DNA from: Corynebacterium testudinoris
GTDB lineage: Bacteria; Actinomycetota; Actinomycetes; Mycobacteriales; Mycobacteriaceae
Assembly (NCBI RefSeq): GCF_001021045.1
Contig: NZ_CP011545.1
Span: forward strand, 2,542,001 to 2,606,000
Length of the DNA: 64,000 nucleotides
Direction of reading: 5' to 3'
Part shown: positions 48,335-58,214 of the stretch, one piece after another
How positions within the stretch are numbered: position 1 is the first letter of the stretch
How the letters are laid out: the number at the start of each line of letters is the position of its first letter
Notes under the pieces: generated by a model
Told to the model about the DNA's origin: nothing
The model's input: only the letters and a program-made list of their open reading frames with translations
The model's database searches: none
Translations under genes and position numbers: made by a program

Positions 48335-49633
48335 TCAGGCCGTTGCCTGACTGACTACCTTCGTACGCGCAGCGAGCAATTCGACAGGGATCTTGACAGT
48401 TCCACCTCTACCCTTAGCTGGTTTGGCTCGGTATACCGATACGGAGCCACCGCCGGCCCATCCGTGGTACGCCGAAACTCCACCCTGGTCGTGGCCCATG
48501 AGCACCTTAGCAAGCCTGGGTAGCATCACGTTTGACACGGTCCGGGGGTTGCGCTCCACAAGGACCCAATTTCGCGACATCTTGTGAGCCGTCGTACCGG
48601 TCGTGCCAGACCCGCCGAATAGGTCAAGAACCAACTCACCCGGATCGGTCGCCACATGGATGATCCGCTCTAGCAGCTCCTCGGGCTTCGGCGTGGCGAA
48701 CACCAATCCTTCGGGAAACAGTGCCTGCAGGTGCCGCTTCCCGTCGTCGTTTGTCCCGGTCTCCGCGGCCGACCAGACCGAAAACGGCACTAGGCCGCGC
48801 AGCTGGTGTGGGAACAGTTTCAGCCGCGGAGAGCCTGCTCCGCCCTTGGGGAACCAGATGCGGTCATCGGCAACGAGTTGCCGATACGTCTCCTCGGTCG
48901 CGTACCAACTCCGGCCCCGCGGCGGCGAGAGCTTGCGCCCGGTCGGAGTGACGATCGTGTACTGCTGGTTCGCTCGGTAACCTGGTGCGGTGAATGGCGC
49001 GTCAGCCCACGGGCCCCGGGGATCGTGGTCACGGTTCCTTAAGTCCTCAGTACCCTTCATCAGCAAGTTCCGACGCTTCTTCCACGACACGGGGCCCGCA
49101 GGCGCGTAAACCAGGATTGTGTCATGGTTCGTTGAAATGGCGCTGCGCGACTCGCGTGTGGTGCGGCGCTGCCAGACAATGGTTGCCACGTATGCCTTCG
49201 TGCCGAAAACCTCGTCAAGCACACACCGTGCCCTGTGACTTTCAGAGTCATCAAGGTGGATCCAGACGCTTGCATCGTCTCGCAAGAGGGGCTTGACTGC
49301 GGCGAGCCTGTCCCTCAGCATGGACAGCCACTGACCACTATCCATCGCGTCATCGTAGTCCCCAAACGTGTAGCCAGTGTTGAACGGTGGGTCAACATAC
49401 ACGAGGCGCACCGACTTTTTAGCGATCAGCGAGGGCGGCTGCATCAGAACGTCAAGCGCATCTCCGCAGATCACGAGTCCATGGCTTTGGCCTGGTACTG
49501 CTGCCTCAACGTGGAGTGCATCAAGAGGGCGAGGATGATGCGCTTTGGGGTCGACCCACTCGTACTTGCTATCGCCCGAGGGTGCTAGCAGTAGCTCCTT
49601 GCCGGGCCAGCTGAGTGTAATCTGATCCGCCAT
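48335..49633 (-). CDS. Beta-class DNA amino-methyltransferase (N6-adenine or N4-cytosine)
   Basis: A 432-aa site-specific DNA methyltransferase. The catalytic motif IV (VYVDPPFNTG, DPPF at 81-84) precedes the S-adenosylmethionine motif I (LDLFGGSGTTGT, FGGSG at 338-342), the beta-class order seen in type III Mod and related enzymes. About 250 residues between them should hold the target-recognition domain. ATG 49633 is chosen because AGGGAGA lies about 8 nt upstream; the open frame starts 8 codons earlier. It is divergent, across 121 bp, from the adenine methyltransferase/McrBC operon, and no res helicase gene is present, so a type III system is unlikely. Confidence 0.88.
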   Translation of the reverse strand: MADQITLSWPGKELLLAPSGDSKYEWVDPKAHHPRPLDALHVEAAVPGQSHGLVICGDALDVLMQPPSLIAKKSVRLVYVDPPFNTGYTFGDYDDAMDSGQWLSMLRDRLAAVKPLLRDDASVWIHLDDSESHRARCVLDEVFGTKAYVATIVWQRRTTRESRSAISTNHDTILVYAPAGPVSWKKRRNLLMKGTEDLRNRDHDPRGPWADAPFTAPGYRANQQYTIVTPTGRKLSPPRGRSWYATEETYRQLVADDRIWFPKGGAGSPRLKLFPHQLRGLVPFSVWSAAETGTNDDGKRHLQALFPEGLVFATPKPEELLERIIHVATDPGELVLDLFGGSGTTGTTAHKMSRNWVLVERNPRTVSNVMLPRLAKVLMGHDQGGVSAYHGWAGGGSVSVYRAKPAKGRGGTVKIPVELLAARTKVVSQATA

Positions 49634-49727
49634 CGTTATCTCTCCCTGTTCCTTCACAACCTAATGACGCTTACGGGACGCTTGCAGCATCACCACGCGC
49701 CAGTACTCCGAGTTGAAAGGTATCTAT

Positions 49728-49748
49728 TTGATATCTACATGCTATCAT
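49728..49748 (+). promoter_or_regulatory. Promoter/operator region of the McrBC-methyltransferase operon
   Basis: TATCAT (49743-49748) is a good -10 only 6 nt before the ATG at 49755, so the transcript is probably leaderless. It overlaps a dyad TGATA-N9-TATCA (49729-49747), placed as expected for a repressor, perhaps the small protein encoded first. Confidence 0.45.
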
Positions 49749-49754
49749 ACTGTT

Positions 49755-50060
49755 ATGTCGACACCCAAGTGCCCGCCGCCGGACGAGCGCCTTAGCGATG
49801 GCACCCCCTGTCAGATCGGTATCCGCTGGCCCACTGCAGTCGATCAGCTGCTCGACGTTCTCGTAAAGCGTGCCAACGAGGCGGGAACTAACTGCAATCG
49901 TAGGGAGCTCACGGCCTCTCTTGTTGTCGAGTCCCACGCCATGTCAGGAGTGCAGTTGCGCAACATGCTTATCCGCTACCGACAAGCCAAGGTGGGCGAC
50001 ATACTGCCGGTCCCCAATGACGCAACCACGGAGCCCGCCCGTAGGGGGAGTCGTGGCTGA
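49755..50060 (+). CDS. Small RHH-like protein, first gene of the McrBC operon
   Basis: A 101-aa protein whose middle resembles a ribbon-helix-helix fold: strand CQIGIRWP, helix about 30-48 (VDQLLDVLVKRANEAG), a turn with NRREL, then helix LTASLVVESH. It may be a control protein that times expression of methylation before restriction. I do not recognise a named family. ATG 49755 is preferred to an in-frame start 14 codons upstream because the promoter dyad and -10 lie between them. It overlaps the following methyltransferase start by 8 bp. G+C is lower and codon use less biased by eye than in the core genes. Confidence 0.7.
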   Translation: MSTPKCPPPDERLSDGTPCQIGIRWPTAVDQLLDVLVKRANEAGTNCNRRELTASLVVESHAMSGVQLRNMLIRYRQAKVGDILPVPNDATTEPARRGSRG

Positions 50061-50910
50061 ACCTCTTTTCAGCACTGCCGTGCCCGCTAGGAAACCATTC
50101 ATTAAATGGGCGGGAGGCAAGACTCGTTTGCTCGCAAAGCTACTGCCATATGTCCCCGAAACGATCGTGAACTATCATGAGCCTTTCCTCGGCGGTGGAG
50201 CCATGTATTTCGCTCTGGCGGATCGCGTCTCGAAAGTCTCGTATCTGAGCGACCTCAACGAAGAGCTTGTAAATGCCTGGCTCGCGGTGAGTAACCACCG
50301 GGACGAGCTGGAAGCAGCTCTGGAGGACTATCGCATAAAGGACGTAGCTGGGGGCAAGGACTTCTATCTCAGCGTACGCACTATGGAGCCGACCGGGGTA
50401 GTCCCTCGTGCGGCGCGTTTCCTCTACTTGAATCAGACTTCGTGGAACGGACTGTGGCGCGTAAACCGCTGGGGTAAGTTCAACGTTCCCTGGGGGAACC
50501 GACCCTTCCGAGGGCTGACGCGCGATCAGATCGACTCTGTCAGCCTGCGTCTCGAGACAGCCGACATTGGCATGCGAGACTTCCGTGACGCAGTCACACT
50601 TGCCCAGCCCGGCGACTTCGTCTATCTCGATCCGCCCTACCTGCCGATCAGTGACACTTCCAAGTTCTATCTCTACACGGAAAAACGCTTTCGCGCGCCG
50701 GATCTGCTAGAGCTGGCTGAATTGTGCGAAGATCTTTCAGAGCGCGGAGTCGCCTGGATGATGTCTAACCGTGACACCCCGCTTGTTCGGGAGCTATTCG
50801 CCGGGCACGAGATCGTCAGCCTGACGACGCGCCGCTCGGTCGCGGCGCAAAATAAGCGAGACGTCGAGCCTAGCGACTCGCTCGAAGCGATCGTGATCGG
50901 GAGGTCTTGA
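50053..50910 (+). CDS. D12-class N6-adenine DNA methyltransferase
   Basis: A 285-aa Dam-like enzyme. N-terminal FIKWAGGKTRLL (WAGGK at 19-23) binds S-adenosylmethionine, with EPFLGGGAMYF (43-53) as motif I. FLYLNQTSWNGLWRVNRWGKFNVP (about 123-146) is the D12 DNA-contact block, and YLDPPY (DPPY at 193-196) is catalytic. GTG 50053 is preceded by AGGGGGAG and gives the standard N-terminus. It overlaps the RHH-like gene by 8 bp and the mcrB ATG by 1 bp (TGATG). It probably protects host DNA from the McrBC-like nuclease it is coupled to. Confidence 0.92.
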   Translation: MAEPLFSTAVPARKPFIKWAGGKTRLLAKLLPYVPETIVNYHEPFLGGGAMYFALADRVSKVSYLSDLNEELVNAWLAVSNHRDELEAALEDYRIKDVAGGKDFYLSVRTMEPTGVVPRAARFLYLNQTSWNGLWRVNRWGKFNVPWGNRPFRGLTRDQIDSVSLRLETADIGMRDFRDAVTLAQPGDFVYLDPPYLPISDTSKFYLYTEKRFRAPDLLELAELCEDLSERGVAWMMSNRDTPLVRELFAGHEIVSLTTRRSVAAQNKRDVEPSDSLEAIVIGRS

Positions 50911-52661
50911 TGAGTTGGCGACCAGCTGAAGCCATATGGTGCATACCTATCACGAAGGCAAATTACCGAGCATCCTACGGTCGCGTCAGACATGGGGATT
51001 TCACAAAGGACTACTTCCAGATACCCGGCTCGATCTACGACGACACTGTTCGCCTTCTCATGGACGGAGACGGCAGCACCAATGCGAAGATCGACTACAT
51101 TTGGCCCGGCGGCAAACTCAGTGACGAAATCCGCAAGTCGTCGAGCGAGCGGCGCCTGCGGATGAGCTGGCCTTATGGAAACGCCCCCCGGCCGTGGAGG
51201 GCCACTCGCATACCGGACGCTGGCACGATTGAGACCTTCCCTGGCGACCCTAACGTGTTCACACAAGGTCTGGAGCCGGTTGACGCCGCCGCCGCTGTTA
51301 ACCGCCAATGGGACGCCGCAAATTCCGCCGGCATCCACGCGTGGGCGGTGGCGGTAAAGCTAAAAGGTGAAGAACACCAGGTCCACACTCGCATGTACCT
51401 CGTCGACCCGCCTCCGGGGTATGAATGGGCTTCAGTTGACCTACTGCCGCCAGCTGTCCAGACTCTCATTCATGGCGGAAAAGATTCCGCCCTGCTCCAC
51501 GTCTTTCGGCCGCCAGTTCGGGCCCAGCGGCTTGTAAATCAGATCCAGAACGCCCTCCAAAACGGTCCCAATGTCCTACTCACGGGCCCGCCGGGGACCG
51601 GAAAGACGGTCGCTCTTGAGGATCTGCGCTCCGTTATGGAAGGCCAGCTTGATCAGTGGGAGTTCAGCCCCGAACGCAACCACGACTCGTGGCGAGGAAG
51701 GCCAAATCCGACAGAGCGCGTCCAGACAGTCTCCCTTGTCTTCCACCCCGGGTACAGCTACGAGAACTTCGTCCTTGGCGTGTTCCCGCATCCCCAGGAA
51801 CCCGGAGGAGTGCAAGTGATTCCTGGTCCGCTGCTAGAGCTCGCTCACTTCGCCGAGGCCGAGGGCCGGGTCGGCCTTCTCATCGTGGATGAGTTCAACC
51901 GCGGACAGGCTGCTGCGATCTTCGGCGACACGCTCGCCCTTCTAGACGAGGACAAGCGCTCCCACCTGGCGACCGGCATTGCCGGCGCCCAGATTACCCG
52001 TCGCTACCCGACTCAGAAGGTGACTGTCTCCGAGGACTTCCGCCACGACGCCCAAGACGATGGCAGCGTGCCTGCACAGCTCTCTCTTCCGCGCCAACTA
52101 AAGCTGGTCGCCGCCATGAACAGCAGCGACCGTAGCGTCGCAGTCCTCGACAGCGCGATGCGCCGCCGCTTCTCGATTATCGAAGTCGCTCCCGACTACG
52201 ACGTACTCGCAGACCACTTCGGCATCGACCCGGCCAGCCCACTCCCCGAAGCTCCGGCAGAACCCGACGACGTGAAGCTAATGGCGATTCGGCTCCTTCA
52301 AATGCTCAATGAACGAGTTCGCGCGGTCTCGGGTCCCGACTTCGAGCTCGGTCATTCTCTCGTCTGGAAGGTATCTGGCGAGAACGTCGATGCGGCAATG
52401 GACTCGCTCGCCCACGCCGTAGACCAGCGCCTCATCGCCACCCTGCGCATGTCATACCGCGACGATCCAGAAACTCTCGGCGCGATCCTAAAGGCACCCG
52501 AGGCCAGCGCTGGGGTGCCCGACACGTCGCGGTTCGCCAGTTGGGTTGACGCGCCCTCAGACCTGGATCAGTACGCGCCCCGCAGCCTACACATTATGAC
52601 TCTGGTGGGCTCCGAGCCCGTCGAGGCGTGGGCCATCTTGGGAACGCTCGTCGGTCCATGA
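50910..52661 (+). CDS. mcrB: McrB-like AAA+ GTPase/ATPase of a restriction system
   Basis: A 583-aa protein. Residues 1-200 form a domain I do not recognise, in the place of the DNA-recognition domain of McrB. The AAA+ motor follows: Walker A GPPGTGKT (226-233), the McrB-typical FHPGYSYENFVLGV (279-292), Walker B LLIVDEFNR (323-331), the MNSSDRS signature (403-409, the McrB NTxD-type motif) and the arginine-rich DSAMRRRFSIIEV. ATG 50910 is used, with GGGAGG 6 nt upstream. It should power DNA translocation for McrC. The unusual N-terminus suggests a target different from that of EcoKMcrBC. Confidence 0.9.
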   Translation: MSWRPAEAIWCIPITKANYRASYGRVRHGDFTKDYFQIPGSIYDDTVRLLMDGDGSTNAKIDYIWPGGKLSDEIRKSSSERRLRMSWPYGNAPRPWRATRIPDAGTIETFPGDPNVFTQGLEPVDAAAAVNRQWDAANSAGIHAWAVAVKLKGEEHQVHTRMYLVDPPPGYEWASVDLLPPAVQTLIHGGKDSALLHVFRPPVRAQRLVNQIQNALQNGPNVLLTGPPGTGKTVALEDLRSVMEGQLDQWEFSPERNHDSWRGRPNPTERVQTVSLVFHPGYSYENFVLGVFPHPQEPGGVQVIPGPLLELAHFAEAEGRVGLLIVDEFNRGQAAAIFGDTLALLDEDKRSHLATGIAGAQITRRYPTQKVTVSEDFRHDAQDDGSVPAQLSLPRQLKLVAAMNSSDRSVAVLDSAMRRRFSIIEVAPDYDVLADHFGIDPASPLPEAPAEPDDVKLMAIRLLQMLNERVRAVSGPDFELGHSLVWKVSGENVDAAMDSLAHAVDQRLIATLRMSYRDDPETLGAILKAPEASAGVPDTSRFASWVDAPSDLDQYAPRSLHIMTLVGSEPVEAWAILGTLVGP

Positions 52662-53941
52662 GACGTCGGGTCATCGAGGTCGTCGAGGGAGAGCCGGTAA
52701 GAGCGTTGTCCGGTGTCGAATTAGTCGACTTAACACGCGCCCGGGCGCGCCTACAGGGTCGGCTCAAACCCCGGCTGAGCCTGTTCAAGGATTCAGCCCG
52801 GGGGATCGTACCCCGCAACGTCGTAGGTACTATCTCGATCAACGCACGGACGAGTCTACGCGTGGTTCCGAAAGTGGGCGACGACCAAGATTGGGTGGGC
52901 GCCGCAATTGATCTGATGCTGCCTGAGCGTGCCTCAATCGCCGGCCATCGTCAAGCCTCCCGCTCCGGCGGCAGGAACAGCCTAGAGGCGGGGCTCGCCG
53001 CCATCTTCCAAGAGCGACTGGAACGAGCCATGCGAGCCGAGGGGCCAATCGAGGTGTTGCATACTGAGTTCCCTCACAGCAATGCCCTTACCGGTCGGCT
53101 TAACGTCGATCGGTGGCTGCTGGAGAAGCCGTTCCGCCAGTTAACTTTTCCGGTCCACAGATCCGTGCTCGACACCAACAACGAGTTGACGGCGGCGCTC
53201 TCTCTGGCCGCCACAATCCTGTCGCGCTCGGTCACCGACGGCACCGTCCGCAACGCACTTGTGAAGCTCTCACACGAAGTCCGCCCGGGGCTACCCGACA
53301 CTGTGAGCGTCGACCCCTCCGTCATTGGACGCCCTCTCCCACAACAATGGTCCGCTTATAACGAGGCGTGGTCCATCGCACAAGTCGTCCTCTCGAACTC
53401 CCGCTTCGCTTCACGTCACGGAACCCTATCCGGAGTCGAGGTTGCGCTTGAACCTTGGGTGCTACTAGAAGAGCTTCTCGATCGCACTGTGCGAGCGGTC
53501 GTACGGAAGGGCAAGGTCGACGGATACGACTGGCACAACCAGCGCCACCCAGCAGTCCAGATCCTTCAACCTAGTACCGCTCCATCAGAAGCCGCGTCCC
53601 TCGCGCGTCTTCTTTCCATTCGCAAGGCGTATCCAGAGAACTTAATCATAGGACCCGACGGGCCCATCGCGTCGTTCGAAGCAAAGTACAGTCGGCCCAA
53701 AAAGCCAGAGTCAATCCGAAATCACATGTACCAGCTGCTCACCACGGCGGCACACGCGGGAAGCCCGCAGGCAATCTTGGTCTATCCCGAGCTATCCGAG
53801 CCGATCCACTGGAATACAGTCGACAGCCGCACGCCGGTAAAGAGCGTGTTCGCGGTTGGGCTCAACCTCTATGCCTATTCGAAGCGCACGGGGGTAGCGG
53901 AACGTGCGCAGCAGATCTCTGATCTTCTGCTCCCGAGCTAG
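52658..53941 (+). CDS. mcrC: McrC-like nuclease subunit
   Basis: A 427-aa McrC-family protein. The N-terminal region (about 1-180) has the McrC pattern of VVGTISINARTSLRVVPKV and LHTEFPHSNALTGRLNVDRWL. The C-terminal PD-(D/E)XK nuclease is visible as GPDGPIASFEAKYS, with D334, E341 and K343. ATG 52658 overlaps the mcrB stop in an ATGA, so the two subunits are translationally coupled. It is the last gene of the operon. Confidence 0.92.
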   Translation: MRRRVIEVVEGEPVRALSGVELVDLTRARARLQGRLKPRLSLFKDSARGIVPRNVVGTISINARTSLRVVPKVGDDQDWVGAAIDLMLPERASIAGHRQASRSGGRNSLEAGLAAIFQERLERAMRAEGPIEVLHTEFPHSNALTGRLNVDRWLLEKPFRQLTFPVHRSVLDTNNELTAALSLAATILSRSVTDGTVRNALVKLSHEVRPGLPDTVSVDPSVIGRPLPQQWSAYNEAWSIAQVVLSNSRFASRHGTLSGVEVALEPWVLLEELLDRTVRAVVRKGKVDGYDWHNQRHPAVQILQPSTAPSEAASLARLLSIRKAYPENLIIGPDGPIASFEAKYSRPKKPESIRNHMYQLLTTAAHAGSPQAILVYPELSEPIHWNTVDSRTPVKSVFAVGLNLYAYSKRTGVAERAQQISDLLLPS

Positions 53942-54405: not shown

Positions 54406-54605
54406 TTGGGCCGTGGACCTGCGTTCTCCGATGAAACAAAACGGACTCCCTTCCCTCAGATCAGGGTGAGACACACAGTATGGGAAGCAACGGCATAGGT
54501 TCTCGAACCCGTCTGCCTGTCCCCGTTCTCCCATGATTTCCTAGGGAGTATCCACTGTCACAAGGTTGCGGTAAAGTTACCCCGAATGAGGGAGCCCCAA
54601 TAAGG

Positions 54606-54935
54606 ATGGGACGCCAGCCCATCACTAAAGATGTCCGCCAATATGACTACGAGGAAAGATACACCCCGAAATACTGCTAGGAAGCCGCCCGGCTGGTCAT
54701 CGACACCGGACGTCCGACCGCAGCAGTCGCCTGGGAACTGGGCATCGGCACGGGACTGTTAGGTCGCTGGGTTAAGGCTGAACGCGAACGCTCCGGTCAG
54801 ATCCCAGCTGATGAGCTAGACACTGATAAACGCGCCGAATCAGACCTGCTGCGCAAGGAACTCGCCGAGCTGAAACTCGACAACGAGTTCCTGGGAAAAG
54901 CAGCAGCCTTCTTCGCATCGAGGCAACGAAAATAG
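54606..54935 (+). pseudogene. IS3-family transposase OrfA remnant
   Basis: ATG 54606 opens a frame reading MGRQPITKDV...EERYTPKYC, then an in-frame TAG at 54678-54680. It continues with EAARLVIDTGRPTAAVAWELG, a helix-turn-helix, and a leucine-zipper-like ESDLLRKELAELKLDNEFL ending at TAG 54933. This is a typical IS3-family OrfA, inactivated by the nonsense codon. The element's ends were not identified. Confidence 0.8.
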
Positions 54936-55440: not shown

Positions 55441-55737
55441 GCAGCGAGAAGTGTTCGAGTCATCTAGATTCCCGGACCATCGAATCCAGCTGGTCCTTCA
55501 CCGCAGGGGTCGATGCCCGATTCGCACCTTCGTACAAGCCCCTGTATCACTGGGAAACCTGGGTGTTCGTCCGACGGGGAATACTGCTGAACGCGCAACG
55601 AAATGACCCCGACGCGAAGTGTCGGGACATCGTTCATTCGGTATTCCGACATCTTGATTGTCGGGGCAAGTTGTCTCAATCAGACGGCTTCCGACAGTTT
55701 CGTGACACTTTACTTAGTGACGATTTACGCTATTGGC

Positions 55738-56253
55738 ATGCTTCCCACTGAGGTTCTGCTCGATTTTGCCCGTCGGCCTGTCGCCGCGATTGTGTCTATT
55801 CGTGGCCAGCTGACTCCTGAACTGTTGGCCGCCCACCCGGGCGGGCACGACAATTCCATCGGGTGGCTGCTGTGGCACATGGGCCGGGAGATCGACGTTC
55901 AATTGAGCGCACTTTCAGGTCTGCCGGAGGTCTGGACGAGTCAGGGCTTTGCGAAACGGCTCGGGCTTGGTGAACTAGGCGACGGTGTCGGCTACGGCCA
56001 AACGAGCGACGAGGCTCGGAGGATCGTGGTGACGGATCCCCAAGCGCTCGTTGATTACGTCTTCGCAGCCGGTGAGGCCTTGAGCAGTTACCTCAGTGCG
56101 CTGGACCCAGAAACGCTGGCCGACGTGGTGGATGAGGACTGGTATCCGCCGGTGACGCGCGCTACCCGGCTGGTCAGCATCGTCGATGATGCTGCCCAAC
56201 ATGCCGGCCAGGTGGGCTACGCCCTTGGAATCCTCGCTGGCGGCCACGCTTAG
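55738..56253 (+). CDS. DinB-like four-helix metalloprotein, probable thiol-dependent transferase family
   Basis: A 171-aa protein resembling the DinB/mycothiol-dependent maleylpyruvate isomerase-like superfamily. Metal-ligand His candidates are in HDNSIGWLLWHMGREID (about residues 38-54) and DDAAQHAGQVGYALG (about 150-164), at the usual positions of the helical bundle. Actinobacterial members often use mycothiol. ATG 55738 is chosen to match family starts; the open frame extends 45 codons into the degraded IS region. No clear ribosome site. Confidence 0.7.
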   Translation: MLPTEVLLDFARRPVAAIVSIRGQLTPELLAAHPGGHDNSIGWLLWHMGREIDVQLSALSGLPEVWTSQGFAKRLGLGELGDGVGYGQTSDEARRIVVTDPQALVDYVFAAGEALSSYLSALDPETLADVVDEDWYPPVTRATRLVSIVDDAAQHAGQVGYALGILAGGHA

Positions 56254-56768: not shown

Positions 56769-58214
56769 CTATCGTGAGTGGCCTCGATTTCGGTAGCTCC
56801 CCAACTCCCACACGCCGTCTTTCAGCTGTCCTGGTGTCCACACCCGGCTGCGACTGCGGTGGTTGCGGTTAGATGGTGGATCGAATGTGGGGGTGTCTTC
56901 GATATCACCCATTGTCATACGTGAGGTGACATCTGTTCCGAATTCTGTCTCGCGTTCGGGCATACGTTTCACCCGTTCCGTCAGCATTTCCTCTGGGAGT
57001 TCGTTCACCGCCTTGTCAAGGGCGCTGGGGAGTCTGCGCTGCATGTCTACGAGCTGTTCGTGGAACTCGCGGCGGTCCATTCGCAATGTGTCGGCAGTGC
57101 GGGCCAGGTTCCTTCCCGTGATTTGGCGGTAGGGTCGCGCTTTGCCATAGCGGACAGCGGCTGAGCTTTTAAACCGCACTCGGTCCTTGTTCCACATTCC
57201 GTGTGCTGAGATGAGGTCATAGGCAGGCGCGAGGCGCACCAGGTTTCCGCTGAGGACGAGGCTGTGGTTCTTCGCGTGCGCGTCGACCCCGGCAGTGAGC
57301 AGGTTAAACGCGAACAGCCGGGCGAGAGCCAATCGATCGCTATCGCGCCAGCGTGGAGAACTGTGCTTATCGACGACGGCGACCATGTCCGCCATCGTCG
57401 GGCCACCGTCCTCCTCATACTTCCGAGAAGGTAAAAATGTGAGGGCCTGACAAAAGTCCTCCTGATGTAGTCGAGTGACCGTCCGGTTTTGGTCGATGCG
57501 GCGGTCATAGCGCTGCGTGACGAATGCGGGCAGGCCGTTGAAATCCTCGATGTCGACCAGGGCGGTCGTGAGCCCTAAATAGCGCGCGGCACGCATTGAG
57601 ACGAACTCGACCGCTTGGACCTCGGCATTGGTGTGCCCTTGAACAGTGACCATCCCCGGTTTCACAATATGCGTGCTCGCTGTTCGCCCATTGGGTTCGA
57701 ACCACCGTCCATCGAGCTTTGCGAGCGCGAACTTTCCCTGGTTACCACTGAGAGAGAAACGGCTCTGGTCCTCGTCGCCGTCATCCACCCAATGGTCGGG
57801 ATCTTCGATGATCTCGTGAATCCGCTCTGCGATACGTGCATCGGTGATGTGCGACATGCTGCCGAGCTGAGAAGGCTGCGCACCCCATGGCACCACCTGT
57901 ACTGAACCCGGCGCATCTTGACCCATATGCCGCAAGAGGGTGAAGGGGTCGTTTCGAGTCTCCCCGAACTTGGCTGCCCATCGGTCCCGAACCTCCACAG
58001 CGTCTGGCAGCAGGTTCGACAACCACGGCATCACTTCATTGGGGCCATAGTGCTGCTGGACGAGCGGCATGCTCACCGACAGCGGAGTCACTCCTCGGCT
58101 ATTGAAGTATTCCGCGTCGTAGGAGAATTCCACCTCATCAGTAGGGCCGCGCATGAGCGAGCCGGCCAACCTCCCGTCGAGCCAGAGATCAAGAATGTCT
58201 GGAAGCCCGCTCAT
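56769..58214 (-). CDS. hipA: HipA-family serine/threonine kinase toxin
   Basis: A 481-aa HipA-like kinase. The ATP-binding glycine loop FSLSGNQGKFALAK (about 153-166) includes Ser154 at the position of the autophosphorylated Ser of E. coli HipA. HIVKP (Lys185) binds ATP, the catalytic GVDAHAKNHSL gives Asp311 and Asn316, and LAPAYDLIS gives the metal-binding Asp333. All key residues are present, so it should be active. E. coli HipA phosphorylates GltX; the target here is unknown. The start overlaps hipB by 4 bp (ATGA), the standard hipBA order. Confidence 0.92.
   Translation of the reverse strand: MSGLPDILDLWLDGRLAGSLMRGPTDEVEFSYDAEYFNSRGVTPLSVSMPLVQQHYGPNEVMPWLSNLLPDAVEVRDRWAAKFGETRNDPFTLLRHMGQDAPGSVQVVPWGAQPSQLGSMSHITDARIAERIHEIIEDPDHWVDDGDEDQSRFSLSGNQGKFALAKLDGRWFEPNGRTASTHIVKPGMVTVQGHTNAEVQAVEFVSMRAARYLGLTTALVDIEDFNGLPAFVTQRYDRRIDQNRTVTRLHQEDFCQALTFLPSRKYEEDGGPTMADMVAVVDKHSSPRWRDSDRLALARLFAFNLLTAGVDAHAKNHSLVLSGNLVRLAPAYDLISAHGMWNKDRVRFKSSAAVRYGKARPYRQITGRNLARTADTLRMDRREFHEQLVDMQRRLPSALDKAVNELPEEMLTERVKRMPERETEFGTDVTSRMTMGDIEDTPTFDPPSNRNHRSRSRVWTPGQLKDGVWELGSYRNRGHSR

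Follow-up and report, generated by a model that had tools for sequence, protein, structure and literature searches.

A probable McrBC-like restriction-modification module with a B3-like reader domain and two amino-methyltransferases in Corynebacterium testudinoris

How can a nuclease that resembles McrBC live with methyltransferases of its own, when classical McrBC is modification-dependent? The question is raised by a five-gene module of Corynebacterium testudinoris, located in a 64,000-nucleotide stretch (NZ_CP011545.1; the whole stretch is termed the window) of the complete 2,721,226-base chromosome. In this module, a beta-class amino-methyltransferase gene (M1) faces an operon composed of a small open reading frame (ORF), a D12 adenine methyltransferase (M2), a McrB-like AAA+ protein (R1) and a McrC-like subunit (R2). 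We consider it probable that the module is a Type II-like restriction-modification system, composed of a B3-like reader of an unmodified, probably asymmetric site, an AAA+/McrC cutter, and the D12 and beta-class enzymes as protectors of one strand each. If so, the cohabitation would be explained by a B3-like sequence reader in place of a modified-base reader such as Type IV enzymes carry.

The reader would be the N-terminal domain of R1 (N-domain), whose predicted fold is B3-like and closest to that of LlaJI.R1. The profile of the domain matched no solved chain by sequence, and the likeness to LlaJI.R1 is thus one of fold only. The N-terminal 200 residues had no Pfam match at E <= 0.1 in the window protein, and none at E <= 1 in eight relatives (for one of these, P0025, among the best 25 of 38 families). 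The list of similar folds contains no modified-base reader (SRA/DUF3578, YTH or EVE), a result that cannot exclude one. Using a profile built from six rows (the window, L017-L020 and L062; loci described below), the N-domain was identified in all 120 listed McrB homologues of 418, own copy included. In 31 of the 120 the entry PF28529, absent from the Pfam version scanned, is precomputed; the reader domain may therefore already be catalogued under that name. At least 18 of the 120 are named 5-methylcytosine-specific by a source, names that the proposed reading, if true, would correct.

The conservation of the neighbourhood was assessed by several searches. The protein search that returned the 418 McrB relatives found just 19 for McrC, own copy included. 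A genome scan yielded 19 loci, four of which match from the N-domain onward, and a family-level search (331 genomes) added two further N-domain carriers besides the own genome. Eight independent N-domain loci were thereby available: the window, a Paracoccus plasmid (L014), Rhizobacter (L017), Burkholderiales (L018), a contig titled Proteobacteria (L019), Candidatus Lucifugimonas marina of the Chloroflexota (L020), and two members of the window's family (L061 and L062). A recount across 126 loci, in which some places are represented several times, gave no ninth. In all eight, a D12 gene adjoins the N-domain gene, and the window D12 protein as sole query recovers the other seven loci (E <= 7e-81); the same 7/7 result of the D12 profile is by construction, since that profile contains these sequences. 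A divergent beta-class enzyme is present in five of the eight (window, L014, L020, L061 and L062). L017 and L018 lack it, and carry instead a gamma-class N6_Mtase (PF02384) directly after McrC. L019 begins inside D12, and its second methyltransferase therefore cannot be read. As controls, 35 loci of McrB relatives were examined: none has the N-domain or a D12 match, and one (L101) has a beta-class match. These controls consist of all 15 partial-match rows of the genome scan (L021-L035) and 20 chosen regions (4.0 to 15.9 kb), 14 of which come from the 62 matching genomes of the window family (own and two carriers excluded) and 6 from the 16 of the search in the order of L017 (L017 itself excluded). 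Both the N-domain fold and this recurring gene set support what the original prediction had supposed, namely a LlaJI/BsuMI-like system that acts on unmodified DNA; the fold and neighbourhood checks that it proposed are those given above.

The shared proteins have diverged considerably, with identities of 48-64% for the beta enzyme, 23-47% for the N-domain, 24-57% for McrC and 43-78% for D12. The beta range leaves out the outgroup L015, a Corynebacterium callunae plasmid whose second gene is a helicase, such that the locus looks like Type III. Distance correlations were modest for N-domain/D12 (r 0.46; 914 of 40,320 permutations) and not clear for N-domain/beta (r 0.37; 28 of 120) or D12/beta (r 0.42; 16 of 120), and amounted to r 0.59 (67 of 5,040) for N-domain/McrC and r 0.71 (24 of 5,040) for D12/McrC. 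By these values, McrC tracks the methyltransferases at least as well as the reader does; the data sets are small, and all of the correlations can be explained by common descent alone. The D12 alignment falls into two subgroups: L014, L061 and L062 share a 20-residue stretch and an insertion after DPPYLP, both of which are missing from the window and L017-L020 proteins. From Dam, we presume that the subgroup-specific stretch may touch DNA, and the two subgroups may correspond to two target sites.

The Paracoccus locus (NZ_CP034812, Paracoccus sp. Arc7-R13) is the first-listed plasmid match for both the beta enzyme (57.9%) and D12 (48.5%). As in the window, the pair is divergent, and here the D12 gene overlaps one annotated as an HNH endonuclease. 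The annotation lists no McrBC gene across 17 kb, and a scan of this stretch gave no McrB motor and no McrC. In the HNH protein, HNH_2 lies close to the C-terminal end (E 1.3e-8), and the N-terminal ~190 residues correspond to the McrB N-domain (27% identity over 200 columns; hhalign E 4e-34; hmmsearch E 4e-52 with a profile lacking the Paracoccus row). With the window N-domain alone as query (E <= 0.1), NZ_CP034812 was the sole match among 72,556 records. In all shared proteins Paracoccus is closest to L061 (beta 64%, D12 56%, N-domain 41%). The shared N-domain and methyltransferases beside an HNH nuclease indicate that reader and protectors stayed together while the cutter differs, an exchange known from this one HNH example. 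This use of one set of parts by two unrelated cutters points to the reader domain as the likely determinant of the target. We see about an even chance that these loci represent a hitherto undescribed family of restriction-modification systems, in which a B3-like reader, D12 and a second amino-methyltransferase (beta or gamma) are combined with either an AAA+/McrC motor nuclease or, in exchange, an HNH nuclease. The HNH end of the Paracoccus protein, N-domain not included, has a counterpart of 39.5% identity in a Neisseria gonorrhoeae record (NZ_CP119142, 374746-375084).

In the proposed mechanism, the B3-like N-domain of R1 would read one specific, probably asymmetric site in its unmodified state. 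Next, the AAA+ ring would recruit the McrC-like PD-(D/E)xK subunit, and the DNA would be cut, probably after movement driven by nucleoside triphosphates (NTPs) like that of McrBC; in the Paracoccus version, the HNH domain would cut directly. The D12 and beta-class enzymes would each methylate one strand of the site, such that binding would be blocked and host DNA hidden, and the module may serve against phages. MboII has an adenine and a cytosine enzyme and FokI two adenine domains (PMC3990576; this and the other papers are cited from part of their text), and by the same logic two methyltransferases of different class would fit one asymmetric site, with a separate enzyme for each strand. The Paracoccus relative may be regarded as a natural control, which has the same reader and protectors and an unrelated cutter, and its comparison with the window could reveal what NTP-driven translocation contributes to restriction.

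An unlikely alternative is that D12 is the sole cognate protector, e.g., of a palindromic GATC-like site, and that the beta enzyme serves another site or is a remnant. D12 is the constant member of the eight loci, the beta enzyme being present in only five, and its closest relatives are DpnM and Dam (TIGR00571 dam subfamily, E 4e-60; closest solved chain DpnM 2dpm, E 5e-45), both of which methylate GATC. The beta enzymes in turn resemble Type III Mod (the closest solved chains of M1 are Type III Mod subunits, followed by MboIIA), and a beta relative also occurs in one of the 35 control loci. Against this, the divergent arrangement of beta and D12 recurs in five loci, Chloroflexota and Paracoccus included, and in the latter it persists without McrBC; the two loci lacking beta encode another amino-methyltransferase right behind McrC; and no Type III Res gene adjoins the pair in the window. 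Since the beta enzyme has no adjoining Res gene, a Type III system as such was rejected.

We consider it very unlikely that the module is a genuine Type IV McrBC directed against DNA with foreign modification, the methyltransferases being mere neighbours or enzymes whose loss is guarded against. The motor and nuclease subunits are indeed McrB- and McrC-like, but the N-domain is nearest to LlaJI.R1, its linkage to D12 contrasts with the controls (8/8 versus 0/35), and an HNH nuclease next to the same methyltransferase pair carries the domain as well. It is barely credible that the locus has ceased to act in restriction and is now an epigenetic switch or a module in decay: the McrC motif has PE in place of PD and restriction activity is a prediction, but all five frames are open with overlapping junctions, the P-loop, NSSD, DPPF, DPPY and EAK are intact, and PE recurs in 15 of the 17 McrC rows aligned with it and is thus not a decay of the window copy. 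A CoCoNuT assignment was also rejected, since R1 has NSSD (NxxD) and not the NxD GTPase motif by which those systems are defined (PMC11090510).

The features of the module, its surroundings and the related loci are listed below.

Table 1. Coordinates of the module, of flanking genes in the window and of methyltransferase genes in related loci
Feature	Position	Strand	Remarks
Beta-class amino-methyltransferase (M1), 440 aa	48335..49657	-	PF01555 E 7e-37
Divergent intergenic region, 97 bp	49658..49754	.	lies between M1 and small ORF
Small ORF, 101 aa	49755..50060	+	one homologue besides own copy, 69% identical
D12 (alpha-class) N6-adenine methyltransferase (M2), 285 aa	50053..50910	+	PF02086 E 1.5e-43
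McrB-like AAA+ protein (R1), 583 aa	50910..52661	+	ATG 50910; AAA_5 E 1e-9
R1 N-terminal B3-like recognition domain, ~residues 1-200	50910..51509	+	predicted fold
McrC-like nuclease subunit (R2), 427 aa	52658..53941	+	ATG 52658; PF10117 E 1.7e-10, above cut-off
Pyruvate-kinase-like protein, 616 aa	46235-48085	-	adjoins module; PF00224
Resembles start of IS3-type transposase gene	54600-54800	+	downstream of operon; by eye, no search made
DinB_2-like protein	55603-56253	+	E 2e-7; MST under its cut-off
HipA-like protein	56769-58214	-	near module; HipA_C E 2e-42, Couple_hipA E 9e-23
Gamma-class N6_Mtase/Eco57I-like protein	L017:10072-12180; L018:9837-12191		directly after McrC
Very large frames with gamma-methyltransferase match	L087:8868-13337; L090:1484-5491		beside other type of McrB/McrC pair

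The genes and their coordinates, including the beta-class enzyme that faces the operon, agree with the original prediction, and motifs as well as family matches bear out the D12, McrB and McrC identities. In M1, DPPF (residue 89) precedes FGGSG (347), which is the beta-class order of amino-methyltransferases. M2 carries DPPY at residue 193, and its start is likely GTG 50053 (285 aa) rather than that of a longer ORF from 49870. R1 has the P-loop GPPGTGKT and the signature NSSD, and solved McrB chains are recovered with its family profile (best E 2e-30). The McrC profile matched no solved chain; R2 contains PE-x(13)-EAK at residues 326-343, of which EAK is kept in 18 of 18 aligned McrC rows, own included. 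With the chosen starts, the overlaps determined by eye are 8 nt (small ORF/D12), 1 nt (D12/McrB, TGATG) and 4 nt (McrB/McrC, ATGA), so the claim that every junction overlaps stands. The ribbon-helix-helix label given to the small ORF could not be confirmed: it has no match in Pfam, PADLOC, NCBIfam or PHROGs, and its low-confidence model (pLDDT 58, pTM 0.37, two-row alignment) shows three helices, no strand, and a quality too poor to support a fold search. A regulator of unassigned family is possible.

Promoters for both directions presumably lie in the intergenic region, in which a consensus scan gave no promoter and no repeat of >=8 nt was found; promoter, terminator and repeat scans yielded nothing better than chance. 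At 0.58-0.62, the genes' GC content lies slightly under the window mean (0.635). A comparison with two relatives gave no clean empty site, only the pyruvate-kinase-like gene being shared. That protein, besides which a separate pyruvate kinase is encoded elsewhere in the genome, has a match at E <1e-100 in 5 of 20 other genomes, one of which (G001) is stop-broken. The large frames of L087 and L090 may correspond to the DISARM-like association mentioned in PMC11090510.

Wider searches for the module returned no further carriers. McrC matched in the own genome alone among 397 genomes of the window order. Across 396 phylum genomes, the McrB profile found one distant McrB besides its match in the own genome. 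McrB matched in 19 of 101 relatives (own included), the other listed matches starting at residue 179 or later. No new carrier was found in 300 genomes of the L017 order (17 matched, own included) or in 197 of the L020 class (14 matched, own included), where the other listed matches lie in the AAA part. Viral contigs and 50,697 phage records gave none.

How, then, does the module compare with known systems? The original prediction knew of no described system with this make-up. Adenine-type protection, however, has a precedent in LlaI, whose methyltransferase is one fused FokI-like adenine protein. A literature search yielded no account of the reader family, of McrBC combined with D12 and a beta or gamma enzyme, or of an HNH exchange; it did not cover most subscription literature or REBASE and hence does not establish absence from print. 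Among further systems, PcaI belongs to the genus Pectobacterium, and EcoRII and UbaLAI are B3-domain restriction enzymes with other nuclease or motor partners. The B3-domain enzymes CglI/NgoAVII and BfiI have a phospholipase D-type (PLD) partner (PMC4267653), as opposed to AAA+/McrC or HNH in the window family. A 2024 census of McrBC mentions branches that occur together with predicted DNA methyltransferases and leaves their treatment to a later publication; its main text names no methyltransferase class, such reader domain or HNH exchange for them (PMC11090510).

LlaJI and PcaI are established McrBC-like systems that cut unmodified DNA (PMC1459862, PMC8989522). Like the window module, PcaI combines a McrBC-like restriction endonuclease with an unrelated DNA-binding domain; unlike it, PcaI has a single Dcm-like methyltransferase and the site CCNGG (PMC8989522). 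LlaI (pTR2030), BsuMI and LlaJI are grouped as a "type II R-like" subfamily of McrBC, in which type IIS methyltransferases come as a pair (PMC2614495), and LlaI and BsuMI, which are McrB-related, cut unmethylated DNA and have paired methyltransferases (PMC2614495, PMC3874153). LlaI needs two methyltransferases (PMC3874153, PMC1459862, PMC2614495), and has three restriction ORFs, its McrB-like proteins being short (337 and 343 aa; PMC1459862), whereas the window has two separate methyltransferase genes, two restriction genes and a 583-aa R1. A close likeness in domain composition is to LlaJI of Lactococcus lactis pNP40, which restricts unmodified DNA with two methyltransferases, a McrB-like R1 with a B3 N-domain and a McrC-like R2 (PMC1459862, PMC12707154). 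The window has this R1, R2 and, by prediction, the B3-like N-domain; the two 5-methylcytosine methyltransferases and four same-direction genes of LlaJI are replaced by two amino-methyltransferases of different classes (PF01555 and PF02086), one of them divergent. The proposed restriction of the LlaJI/BsuMI kind is well supported by sequence and predicted structure. Type IV McrBC has no cognate methyltransferase, in contrast to the N-domain loci, where the adjacent D12 enzyme is putatively cognate. What appears to be new, as judged from the sequences, is the McrB N-domain as a shared, portable reader, tied to D12 in all eight loci and placed on an unrelated nuclease in one.
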